Source: Dongia mobilis
GTDB taxonomy: Bacteria > Pseudomonadota > Alphaproteobacteria > Dongiales > Dongiaceae
Length of the DNA: 64,000 nt
Direction of reading: 5' to 3'
NCBI RefSeq assembly: GCF_004363235.1
Contig: NZ_SNYW01000007.1
Coordinates: forward strand, 1-64,000
The notes beneath the pieces are model-generated. The model saw only the letters and a list, made by a program, of their open reading frames with translations, ran no database searches and was not told the origin of the DNA. This document shows, in pieces, positions 42,437 to 49,800 of this stretch (within the stretch, counting starts at the first letter, position 1; every line of letters starts with the position of its first letter). The position numbers were made by a program, and so were the translations under genes.

Positions 42437-42454
42437 TGTGACTACAGTTCGACA
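42437..42454. promoter_or_regulatory. PpsR/CrtJ-type operator 1 before crtI
   Basis: TGT-N12-ACA match (TGTGACTACAGTTCGACA), directly abutting the next box. Confidence 0.65.
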
Positions 42455-42472
42455 TGTCAAAAAAAAGTGACA
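42455..42472. promoter_or_regulatory. PpsR/CrtJ-type operator 2 before crtI
   Basis: TGT-N12-ACA with perfect 5-bp arms TGTCA/TGACA around an A-run. It ends 7 nt before the first crtI ATG. Confidence 0.8.
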
Positions 42473-45222: not shown

Positions 45223-46332
45223 CATCAACTGCACCAACGGATTGGCGAAGCGGTCGAGCGACAGGCTTTCATGCATGGCGATCATCCGGCGCCCCAGCAA
45301 CTGCGTCTCCATCAGTGAACGGGCGTAGAAGGGCGTATCCTCGTAGGTGCGCAGCACGCGCGCATCGAAGGGATTGTCGGCGCGCGTCGCCCGCCCGATG
45401 CGCCACAGGGTGGCGGGCAAGGCGACGCGCTGCGGCGCCTCAATGTGATGAAACCGCCCGGCAGCGTCGCAGGCGATGGCAAAGCCGAAGGTGTCCCGAT
45501 CCCGCTTTTCGCCGTGATAGAGAATGGCGGTGGTACCGTCGCCATGCGCCCGCGACCAATCCCAGGCAATGAAGCCCTTCTCGAGTGGCTCGTCACCCCA
45601 GTTGCTGTCCAAATAGCCGGTTCCCCGCCAGCGCAGCGCGGGCTGCTCCATCACGACCTCGACAGCGGCGCTGGGGGCGATGGGGCGCCAGTGATGTCGT
45701 TCCGCACCGTCTAGGTTGATCGCGAATTCGGGCAGGACATGGGGTGTCAGTCGGACCTCGCCACGCAGCCTCAACGGCAGTGGGACGCCGATCTCGTCGA
45801 TCCGGATGACGAGGCGGCCCTGGTCCCAGTGCAACGCGCTCGGCCCGACGGCGAAGCTGGTGGCATCGCGGGAGAGGGACCTCGCGCCGCGCTCGGTCAT
45901 CGCCCAGCGCTTGGCGCGCGGACCGTAGAGCACGACATTGATGGCGCAGTGATTTGCCGGGTCGGCGTTGCCGCGCCGCCGCGCCCGGGCGTAATAGGGC
46001 GAGAAGACGCTGCCGACGAAAGCGATGACGGTGAGGGCGTGCCGCCCGTCTTCACTCAGGGCGTCGACATACCACCAGGCATAGCCGTTCGGACCGACTC
46101 TCTGGTCGAAGCGAGGTCCGCCAGCAGGGCATCCGCCGCCAGCCGGCCAGAGAGCGCCGCCATCGGCACACCCGGCCCCGGATGCGTCCCGCCCCCCGCC
46201 AGATAGAGGCCCCGCAGGCGGCTGCGTGCCGCCTCGCGCCTGAAGGTCGCCGCCCAGCCATGCGAGGCCCGGCCGTAGAGCGCCCCCCCCGTCGCCGGAA
46301 AGAGCCGGTTGAATTCCCGCGGTCCGGTCCAT
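45190..46332 (-). CDS. crtC: CrtC, carotenoid 1,2-hydratase (hydroxyneurosporene synthase)
   Basis: The conserved domain starts at about 46113 with FDQRVGPNGYAWWYVDALSEDG and continues with IAFVGSVFSPYYARARR, GYLDSNWGDEPLE and WDWSRAHGD. It adds water to the end double bond of acyclic carotenoids. No ATG, GTG or TTG lies in frame close to the conserved start. The nearest ATG is at 46332, with GGGAG 8 nt upstream; this adds about 73 Gly/Ala/Arg-rich residues that overlap crtD. I use it provisionally. Confidence 0.85.
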   Translation of the reverse strand: MDRTAGIQPALSGDGGGALRPGLAWLGGDLQARGGTQPPAGPLSGGGRDASGAGCADGGALWPAGGGCPAGGPRFDQRVGPNGYAWWYVDALSEDGRHALTVIAFVGSVFSPYYARARRRGNADPANHCAINVVLYGPRAKRWAMTERGARSLSRDATSFAVGPSALHWDQGRLVIRIDEIGVPLPLRLRGEVRLTPHVLPEFAINLDGAERHHWRPIAPSAAVEVVMEQPALRWRGTGYLDSNWGDEPLEKGFIAWDWSRAHGDGTTAILYHGEKRDRDTFGFAIACDAAGRFHHIEAPQRVALPATLWRIGRATRADNPFDARVLRTYEDTPFYARSLMETQLLGRRMIAMHESLSLDRFANPLVQLMLPFRMPRRSS

Positions 46333-47594
46333 TGGCCGTTCTCCCATTTGGTGATCCTGAGGCCGCATTGCGCCAGCCGGTGTGCGATCCTGGCTTGCCA
46401 TGTCGTTTCCCCCGAAGGCGCCGGGGCCCTCGTGTCGCCACCGGGCGGCGCATTGATCAGGCAGAAGAGCCGCTCAGCCTCGCCGGGCGCGGGAACGTCC
46501 GCGTCGCCGTCGCCTCGGTCCTGGGCGCAGAGATAGACGGTCGGATCGTCCGGCAGCCGACCGGCGCGGAAGATTGAGTCGAACTCGGCCTGGTAATCCG
46601 GCGAGAAGAAGACGTTGTGCCGCAGCAAGGGGAAGCCGTCACAGGGGGCCAAATTCGCGATAGTCACGGCCGAGAGCGAGCGCGCCGCCGGCGGCACCGC
46701 CGCAACGGCGCCGCGCAAGGCGGCGCCGAAACACCCGGCAGCGAGCGCCGCCACATCGGCGTTCATGACGATTGCGTCCGCAGGCAAACGGATGCCATCG
46801 GCGAGGGTGAGGCCGGTGGCTCGGCCACGGGTGATCTCGATCTCTTTCACCTCGGCATTAAGGTGGATCTCGGCGCCGTGGGTGCGCGCCAGTGTGGCGA
46901 GTGCGCGCGCGATGCTGTGCATGCCGCCGTCGACCAGCCAGACCCCTTCGCGTTCGACATGGGCGACCAGCATCAGCGTGGCCGGCGCCTGAAAGGGGGA
47001 TGACCCGCAATAGGTGGCATAACGCCCGAAGAGCTGGCGCAGCCGCGGATCGTTGAAATGCTCGCCAAGCGCATCCCACAGCGTGGCGAAGGGCGATATG
47101 CGCAGCAACTCCGGCAGCCGCTGCGGTCCGACACGGAACATCAGCGAGACCGGGCTTGGCCGGCTCGCGCGCAGGAAGCTGTGCTCGAGCGTCCGGTAGA
47201 TCTCCGCTGCCCGTGTAGAGAAACTGCGATAGGCACGCGCCTCGGCCGCACCGCAGAACGTGCCGATTGCATCGGCGGAGCGATCCAAGTCCGGGTAGAG
47301 ATCGAGATGGCCGCGATCGTCCCAGGCGTGGCGGGCAAGGATCTCGACCGGCCGCGCCGCAACGGCGGCGGCAAAATCACCGCCGGCATCGGCAAAGAGC
47401 TCGTCGAATACCCAGCGCATGGTAAAGACGGTCGGCCCGCAATCGATCGCCCGCCCGCCGATCGTCGCCAGGCGCATTTTTCCCCCGATTTCCGCGGCGC
47501 GCTCGACGACCGTCACGTCGAGGCCGCGAGCTGCCAGCAGCGCCGCCGCCGCCAGGCCGCCGATGCCGGCACCGATGATGATGACCCGCGCCAT
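46056..47594 (-). CDS. crtD: CrtD, hydroxyneurosporene/methoxyneurosporene desaturase
   Basis: 512 residues. The FAD motif is VIIIGAGIGGLAAAALLAARG, with VVERAAEIGGKMR and CGPTVFTMRWVFDELF. The C-terminal CrtI-family motif is LYLAGGGTHPGPGVPMAALSG. It introduces the 3,4 double bond. The ATG at 47594 was chosen because it fits the FAD fold start and lies downstream of the predicted promoter; the upstream start at 47669 would lie in the promoter. Divergent from crtE. Confidence 0.93.
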   Translation of the reverse strand: MARVIIIGAGIGGLAAAALLAARGLDVTVVERAAEIGGKMRLATIGGRAIDCGPTVFTMRWVFDELFADAGGDFAAAVAARPVEILARHAWDDRGHLDLYPDLDRSADAIGTFCGAAEARAYRSFSTRAAEIYRTLEHSFLRASRPSPVSLMFRVGPQRLPELLRISPFATLWDALGEHFNDPRLRQLFGRYATYCGSSPFQAPATLMLVAHVEREGVWLVDGGMHSIARALATLARTHGAEIHLNAEVKEIEITRGRATGLTLADGIRLPADAIVMNADVAALAAGCFGAALRGAVAAVPPAARSLSAVTIANLAPCDGFPLLRHNVFFSPDYQAEFDSIFRAGRLPDDPTVYLCAQDRGDGDADVPAPGEAERLFCLINAPPGGDTRAPAPSGETTWQARIAHRLAQCGLRITKWENGQWTGPREFNRLFPATGGALYGRASHGWAATFRREAARSRLRGLYLAGGGTHPGPGVPMAALSGRLAADALLADLASTRESVRTAMPGGMSTP

Positions 47595-47647: not shown

Positions 47648-47696
47648 TTGACTGTTTTATGAGTGTCAAGTATACATGACACTATAAAATGACCAA
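47648..47696. promoter_or_regulatory. Overlapping divergent promoters crtD/crtE with PpsR box
   Basis: Rightward: TTGACT (47648-47653), 17-nt spacer, TATACA (47671-47676). Leftward: TTGGTC (complement of 47691-47696), 16-nt spacer, TATACT (complement of 47669-47674). The PpsR/CrtJ-type box TGTCAAGTATACATGACA (47664-47681) covers both -10 elements. One bound dimer pair would block both directions (inference). Confidence 0.7.
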
Positions 47697-47731
47697 ACAA
47701 ATTGACAGTCGGTCGGACGCGGGAGGCCCCC

Positions 47732-48601
47732 ATGGTTGCCATGACGCGCATTGAGCGGGCGATGAACGAGGCGATCGCCGCCTCGGATGGATCGGGATGT
47801 CCCCCAAGATTGATGGCCGCGGTGCGCTATGCCGTTTTTCCGGGCGGTGCGCGTATTCGGCCTCGCCTTTGCCTTGCGGTCGCGGAAGCCTGCGGTGACG
47901 ACCAACCGGCCGTTGCCGACGCGGCGGCCTGCGCCATCGAGATGCTGCATTGCGCCTCGCTGGTGCACGACGACCTGCCCTGCTTCGACAATGCCGACGA
48001 ACGGCGCGGCAAACCTTCGGTGCATCGCGCCTTCGACGAACGCCTGGCGGTGCTCGCCGGCGACGCCCTGATCGTGCTCGCCTTCCAGACCATCGCACGG
48101 CAGACGATGCTGGCGCCGCCGCGCTGCGGTGCGCTGCAATTGGTCGTCGCGCGCTCGGTCGGCATGCCGCTCGGCATCGTCGCGGGCCAGGCCTGGGAAT
48201 GCGAGCCGGAGGCCGATCTTTCCGCCTATCACCGCGCCAAGACCGGCGCTCTGTTTGCCTCGGCGACGGTCGCCGGTGCTGCCGCGGCAGGTGCCGAAGC
48301 GGCGCCCTGGCAATTGCTCGGTGAGCGCATCGGCGAGGCCTATCAGGTGGCGGACGACATCCGCGATGCGGCTGGCGACAGCGTAGATTTGGGCAAGCCC
48401 GTGGGGCAGGATGCCCTGCTCGGCCGCCCCAGCGCAGTGCTCCAACTTGGCCTAGACGGTGCCATCCGACGGCTCAAATGCCTGGTCGCCGAGGCGGTCG
48501 AGGGCATTCCCGCTTGTCCCGGCGCCGAGGATCTGAAGGCGCATATTCTCTCCGAGTCCGGGCGGTTGCTGCCAAAAGGGCTGGCGCTGCGGGCGGCGTG
48601 A
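47732..48601 (+). CDS. crtE: CrtE, geranylgeranyl diphosphate synthase
   Basis: 289 residues. Polyprenyl synthase with the first Asp-rich motif DDLPCFDNADERRG and the second ADDIRDAAGD. KPSVH and YHRAKTGALF are conserved. It supplies the C20 unit for carotenoids and for the bacteriochlorophyll tail. GGGAGG lies 5 nt before the ATG at 47732; an in-frame TTG at 47702 is less likely. Confidence 0.94.
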   Translation: MVAMTRIERAMNEAIAASDGSGCPPRLMAAVRYAVFPGGARIRPRLCLAVAEACGDDQPAVADAAACAIEMLHCASLVHDDLPCFDNADERRGKPSVHRAFDERLAVLAGDALIVLAFQTIARQTMLAPPRCGALQLVVARSVGMPLGIVAGQAWECEPEADLSAYHRAKTGALFASATVAGAAAAGAEAAPWQLLGERIGEAYQVADDIRDAAGDSVDLGKPVGQDALLGRPSAVLQLGLDGAIRRLKCLVAEAVEGIPACPGAEDLKAHILSESGRLLPKGLALRAA

Positions 48602-49756: not shown

Positions 49757-49800
49757 TGTACATCTCAATTGACACTCATAATTGTCACGTTATAGTGACA
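49757..49800 (+). promoter_or_regulatory. bchC promoter with two PpsR/CrtJ boxes
   Basis: Boxes at 49757-49774 (TGTACATCTCAATTGACA) and 49783-49800 (TGTCACGTTATAGTGACA, 6-bp arms). A sigma70-like promoter is embedded: TTGACA (49769-49774), 16-nt spacer, TATAGT (49791-49796). The -35 is in the first box and the -10 in the second. Confidence 0.75.

Follow-up and report, generated by a model that had tools for sequence, protein, structure and literature searches.

Genes and operators at the crtD-crtE locus

In the window, by which we mean the whole 64,000-nucleotide stretch of Dongia mobilis DNA that was analyzed, crtD and crtE are transcribed away from each other, crtD to the left and crtE to the right, across a gap of 137 bp (Table 1). 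The crtD product scored 673.8 bits with the CrtD model in a protein-family search (cut-off 580). The crtE product is a relative of GGPP/FPP synthases that reached 163 bits with the CrtE model, and since this is below the cut-off of 460, the name crtE rests on the position of the gene ahead of crtF and bchC. Protein families also back crtI, crtB-like, crtC-like, bchC and bchX genes nearby, as they do crtD, several of these matches (CrtE included) lying under the curated cut-offs. Six out of six further genomes in the genus gave no CrtD match at 1e-40, so the photosynthesis cluster is patchy there, through either one gain or frequent loss.

The gap contains a PpsR box (box 1, TGTCAAGTATACATGACA) that fits the TGT-N12-ACA palindrome of the PpsR/CrtJ operator. 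Three copies of the pattern TGTCA-N8-TGACA lie in the window, where 0.01 would be expected, and exact matches number three in the whole 4.19 Mb genome, all of them in the photosynthesis cluster; the reversed pattern, used as a control, had no match genome-wide. The other two exact boxes lie ahead of crtI (42455) and bchC (49783), so that all three precede pigment genes. A preliminary description of the locus had placed one PpsR box between crtD and crtE, but a degenerate second box (TGACCAAACAAATTGACA) lies 8 bp away; it reads TGA-N12-ACA and has a single intact half only. The bchC promoter in the window is also composed of two boxes (49757-49774 and 49783-49800) with the same 8 bp spacing as at crtD/crtE. 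Ahead of crtI (42437-42472), two TGT-N12-ACA boxes abut with zero spacing, as against 8 bp at the other two promoters.

The genome has two PpsR genes, both above the family cut-off and each encoding PAS and Fis-type HTH domains. These paralogues, which are 40 percent identical, lie just beyond the end of the window (G000:C2:64107-65438, minus strand, and 82762-84075, plus strand). The first follows a gene for a B12-binding, AerR-like protein, and its HTH region includes a cysteine (ERMCIEAAL) where the second paralogue has a tyrosine (ERHYVEAAL). The gene ahead of the second is presumably hemA-like.

Table 1. Genes, operator boxes and candidate promoter elements of the crtD-crtE region (positions in the window)
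Feature	Position	Strand	Remarks
crtD, 1-hydroxycarotenoid 3,4-desaturase	46056..47594	-	512 aa from ATG at 47594
crtE, geranylgeranyl diphosphate synthase	47732..48601	+	289 aa; name partly from place before crtF and bchC
PpsR box 1, TGTCA-N8-TGACA, TGTCAAGTATACATGACA	47664..47681		spans both proposed -10s; counterpart in 76/76 divergent crtD/crtE regions
Degenerate PpsR box 2, TGACC-N8-TGACA, TGACCAAACAAATTGACA	47690..47707		8 bp from box 1
crtE candidate -35, TTGACT	47648..47653	+	read from the letters
crtE candidate -10, TATACA	47671..47676	+	17 bp spacer; predicted start about 47683
crtD candidate -10, TATACT (complement of AGTATA)	47669..47674	-	register conserved; predicted start about 47662
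crtD candidate -35	47690..47696	-	TTGGTC 47696-47691, 16 bp spacer; or family register TGGTCA 47695-47690, 15 bp
Rival crtD promoter, CTGTCA-N16-TATAGT	47681..47708	-	-10 at 47686-47681; not conserved as preferred register

Candidate promoter elements within the operator

Direct reading of the letters confirmed the elements that had been described, namely TTGACT-N17-TATACA on the plus strand, TTGGTC-N16-TATACT on the minus strand and the operator, and both -10 elements (47669-47676) do lie inside box 1 (47664-47681). On the minus strand TTGGTC is the reverse complement of GACCAA at 47691-47696. The two -10 elements had been said to share TATAC, and this holds in part: the base pairs common to both hexamers are TATA (47671-47674), readable as a -10 on both strands, whereas TATAC is shared only as the reading of each strand. 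The promoters had also been called face-to-face, which is the wrong word because transcription runs outward in both directions from one centre. The predicted spacing of the two starts, projected from the elements, is 21 bp in the register of the window and 18 bp in the register of the family described below.

Neither of these promoters is strong. The plus strand candidate matches 9/12 consensus positions, without the T at the last -10 position, and the minus strand candidate 8/12. A simple sigma-70 scan prefers other sites such as CTGTCA-N16-TATAGT on the minus strand. By a simple score, which takes its base frequencies and spacer penalties from E. coli with no fitting, this site reaches 9.1 versus 8.3 for the crtD site first described; on the plus strand a site with its -10 at 47685 ties with the crtE site first described (8.9 each). 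The scan showed no excess of sigma-70-like sites between 40 and 56 kb, with 3 found versus 2.0 expected from shuffles. This would be in keeping with a plain PpsR operator in which the promoter-like letters occur by chance, a reading that we nevertheless hold to be highly improbable in view of the asymmetry within the two-fold symmetric site, which is missing from the bchC boxes of the same loci.

Conservation of the two boxes in divergent crtD/crtE regions

We compared the region across loci gathered in two collections. The first set (n = 85) comprised the window, four further loci and the best 80 of 378 relatives found with the CrtD query, these 80 being taken as named loci with no Rhodobacter named among them. 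A class-wide draw supplied 23 other genomes with CrtD (24/385 counting the window's own genome). Loci L001-L003, L008 and L009 were excluded as own-genome, regulator or paralogue loci, and three records from a plasmid search were left out of the comparison. Divergent crtD and crtE with projected starts less than 400 bp apart were present in 57/85 loci of the first set and 19/22 of the second, a total of 76 regions with the window included. After dropping regions at least 65 percent identical to one kept, 57 remained, a figure that equals the 57 of 85 by coincidence. Some genomes are in both collections (L038 and L096, for example, read alike), and the 65 percent dereplication was meant to remove them. 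Loci with no divergent crtE within 400 bp (28/85 and 3/22, 31 in all) were dropped and viewed separately; 7 of the 31 have a box with 7-8 of 8 letters no more than about 260 bp from where crtD begins. By record title the loci span Alpha-, Beta- and Gammaproteobacteria. Contigs titled Anaerolineae and Frankia (L012 and L015) bear proteobacterial-type crtD/crtE regions, L012 giving a near-identical reading to L090, and these two are probably mis-binned or mislabelled.

The best site had at least 6 of the 8 half-site letters in every one of the 76 regions, with 8 letters in 50, 7 in 22 and 6 in 4. A counterpart of box 2 follows 8 bp on, with the family consensus TGACAA-N7-TTACA. The third base of box 2 (position 28) is A in 35/57 dereplicated regions and T in 9/57, which gives TGACA for TGTCA; this conserved deviation agrees neither with the consensus for PpsR nor with a -35 of the form TTGACA.

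Asymmetry inside box 1

The interior of the box departs from its two-fold symmetry. Among the dereplicated regions A5 is present in 52/57 and its mirror T12 in 26/57 (p 2.6e-6), T9 in 40/57 and its mirror A8 in 17/57 (p 1.2e-4), and the pair A5+T9 in 38/57 versus 8/57 for the mirror-image pair. We rejected an artefact of box finding as the source. When the eight symmetric letters alone were used to choose the box, the choice was unique and agreeing in 59/76 regions, with 16 ties and 1 differing choice. In the 44 dereplicated regions where these letters choose the box uniquely, the asymmetry persists (A5+T9 in 32, the mirror pair in 6). A preference of PpsR itself was rejected by means of the bchC promoters of the same loci. 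This control covered 49/57 loci (52 scored at least 15 of 20, and 49 of those have the 8 bp spacing), and their lower boxes have A5+T9 in 0/49 while carrying a -10 of their own in the register T8A9..T13 in 46/49. Because the bchC boxes never show the pair and have their own -10 elsewhere, the asymmetry of box 1 is attributable, on the sequence comparison, to the crtD/crtE promoter and not to PpsR. In four loci (L004, L045, L101 and L106) crtF is divergent from crtD and crtE was not found; these have a box of 8 of 8 letters with A5 in 4/4 and T9 in 0/4, a count that covers four loci only.

The crtD side

A5 and T9 correspond to the -7 T and the -11 A of a minus strand crtD -10 at box positions 10 to 5, and the asymmetry fits a crtD -10 in that place. 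This is the register that had been read in the window, and it is the one conserved in relatives, the best-scoring crtD -10 being at box position 10 in 20/57 regions and at position 9 in 8/57. The rival CTGTCA-N16-TATAGT, despite its top minus strand score in the window, is the best register in 3/57 versus these 20/57 and was rejected. We also rejected a conserved minus strand -35 at 16-17 bp, since the profile peaks at a 15 bp spacer (3.56 of 6 letters at position 31, 1.26 at position 32); the conserved crtD -35 is TTGTCA in box 2.

A close model for this half is the two-box bchC promoter, for which the box positions in R. capsulatus are those given in PMC5362033. The boxes are likewise 8 bp apart, with the -35 in the upper and the -10 in the lower box, a likeness of the crtD side that holds for the family and is weak in the window. 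The bchC promoter differs in having TTGACA, a 16 bp spacer and a single direction, whereas crtD has TTGTCA, a 15 bp spacer and a -10 that is one base nearer: with box positions counted in the direction of each promoter, that of bchC starts from position 8 and that of crtD from position 7. As judged from these letters, the crtD side looks like a bchC promoter with its -10 shifted by one base.

The crtE side

A -35 with at least 4 of 6 letters at crtE spacing (16-18 bp) was found in 30/57 regions versus 5/57 at a control offset. In 27/57 such a -35 is at -19/-20, which suits a -10 at box positions 4-9, and A5+T9 is retained in 23/27 of these regions versus 15/30 of the others (p 0.006). T4, which is expected of a crtE -10, was not significantly tied to the crtE -35 (12/27 versus 8/30, p 0.18). 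The -35 of the window is at -16 and so calls for TATACA at box positions 7-12; the letters of this crtE register are present in the window as described, but a -35 at -16 is rare among relatives (3/57). Sites resembling a -35 at -8 to -10 are present in 18/57 and would pair with a -10 at positions 14-19; these groups overlap. The top-scoring -10s of the two strands overlap in 18/57 regions, versus 7.5 in shuffles (sd 2.5, maximum 14, 60 rounds), an overlap of predicted elements that exceeds chance yet is confined to a minority of regions. Taken together, the predicted elements indicate that promoter overlap is general, that strict sharing of a -10 is common and that the crtE register of the window is unusual. 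The Bradyrhizobium regions are a poor fit to a shared -10 for crtE. Across the family, A5+T9 alone is no proof of a crtE -10 in the box because the crtD promoter by itself explains the pair.

The same consideration applies to an alternative in which only the crtD -10 lies in the box and crtE is transcribed from a separate downstream promoter, giving overlapping promoters with no shared -10, for A5 and T9 require the crtD promoter alone. Such a crtE promoter could for example be bchC-like, with the TTGACA of box 1 as its -35, just as the bchC -35 TTGACA sits in the upper box, and with its -10 in box 2; the plus strand indeed scores best at registers 33-35 in 17/57 regions and at register 14 in 10/57. 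That score is partly free, however, because the TTGACA of box 1 is present anyway as a half-site, and the enriched TTGAC-like -35s are located left of box 1, outside the boxes. In regions whose crtE begins 38 bp beyond box 1 (L034, for example), transcripts from register 34 would moreover have leaders of some 10 nt, and the register-34 site scores only 5.6 in the window. On balance we consider a separate crtE promoter unlikely, though a serious contender.

Proposed regulation by PpsR

The most probable explanation, and one that we hold with reasonable confidence, is a PpsR-co-repressed, overlapping pair of divergent sigma-70 promoters with both -10s in the same PpsR box. The basis for it here is the sequence, the rarity of the operator in the genome, its conservation and its interior asymmetry; from these we infer PpsR binding in this organism, the start sites and any competition between polymerases. 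The 137 bp gap would hold a compact divergent promoter pair in which the crtD side is bchC-like, the degenerate upstream box carrying the -35 and box 1 the -10, while the crtE side would have its -35 left of and outside the boxes and borrow box 1 for its -10. Under oxic conditions PpsR on both boxes would cover the -10 of each promoter as well as the -35 of crtD, and both directions would thereby be silenced together. Once repression is relieved, polymerase could bind in either orientation and never in both at once. The two promoters would thus be co-repressed and might hinder each other when highly active, but would form no toggle.

Published work on relatives is consistent with this arrangement. 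CrtJ occupies crtED in R. capsulatus as a ChIP-seq peak that is comparable aerobically and photosynthetically (PMC5362033), and in R. sphaeroides a PpsR ChIP-seq peak is attributed to crtEF as well as to crtCD, the two operons being repressed (PMC4344238). This occupancy, together with the conservation reported above, bears out the initial placement of overlapping promoter elements for crtD and crtE beneath a PpsR operator, and the repression of both sides in R. sphaeroides is the ground for co-repression. In the ppsR mutant comparison the reported values were -8.98 for crtEF, -2.65 for crtCD and -36.61 for bchCXYZ (PMC4344238); the smaller change of crtCD would suit a weaker crtD promoter. 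Two further papers describe PpsR binding over -10 and -35 in Rubrivivax, with a redox response that depends on spacing (PMC4452267), and two PpsR proteins that oppose each other in Bradyrhizobium, whereas in R. palustris both repress (PMC10569730).

It had been proposed that only one direction can be open at a time, as an economical switch. The steric part of this stands, inasmuch as two polymerases cannot sit simultaneously on a shared -10 in E. coli (PMC12825309), but the switch does not follow. A true switch would have polymerase competition at the shared -10 produce reciprocal crtD and crtE output and so tune the branching of carotenoid synthesis between its early and late steps. Either polymerase would melt the same base pairs, and competition is described in E. 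coli when one direction of a bidirectional promoter is strongly activated. The same source reports no competition in 5/5 promoters tested at basal activity (PMC12825309). Neither promoter of the window comes close to consensus, and loss of PpsR raises both operons in R. sphaeroides (PMC4344238). We consider a true switch improbable.

Relation to known systems and significance

Our literature search found no mapped start site for crtD or crtE, and its results for bidirectional promoters together with PpsR were two synthetic-biology papers. Older papers on the Rhodobacter carotenoid cluster are said to describe palindromes and promoters at this region.

Among the closest known systems is the PpsR/CrtJ operator of Rhodobacter crtD-crtE (crtED), with the same gene pair and the same TGT-N12-ACA (PMC5362033 and PMC4344238). 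The R. sphaeroides motif published in the latter, TGTAAGAAAAAGTTGACA, differs in that it resembles an upper box and is without A5/T9; the available text describes no register of start sites. The bacterial bidirectional promoters described by Warman, Grainger and colleagues are similar in having divergent starts around a shared -10, with start spacings of 18, 10 or 23 bp, 18 being the commonest (PMC12825309). For the -10s of the family (positions 4-9 and 10-5) a spacing of 18 bp is predicted, unlike the 21 bp of the window, and here a symmetric repressor box overlies the shared -10. In Dinoroseobacter shibae the divergent bchF/ppaA pair likewise has PpsR motifs over -10 and -35, but with four motifs, other genes and no shared -10 described in the available part of the source (PMC10890935).

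The shared control region is real, conserved in many purple bacteria and mostly as first read, and it is essentially of a known kind and no new type of switch. The novelty lies in the comparative case for a promoter core within the operator and for its one-base offset from bchC; our search of one open library found no paper on either. As a tentative extension, to which we attach rather little confidence, a bidirectional sigma-70 core in a PpsR operator may have persisted in the photosynthesis clusters of alpha-, beta- and gammaproteobacteria. Its crtD half would derive from a bchC-like two-box promoter whose -10 moved by one base, so that TAnnnTA in the core could be read on two strands, and the conserved weak crtD half (TTGTCA, 15 bp) may fix a low crtD:crtE ratio.

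The region is a natural and conserved setting in which to address a recently opened question, that of a repressor and polymerase competition acting jointly at a shared -10. Such promoters can also be found cheaply by comparison, from asymmetry in a symmetric repressor site set against another operator of the same repressor. For carotenoid regulation, the finding means that crtD and crtE are to be treated as a single regulated unit.
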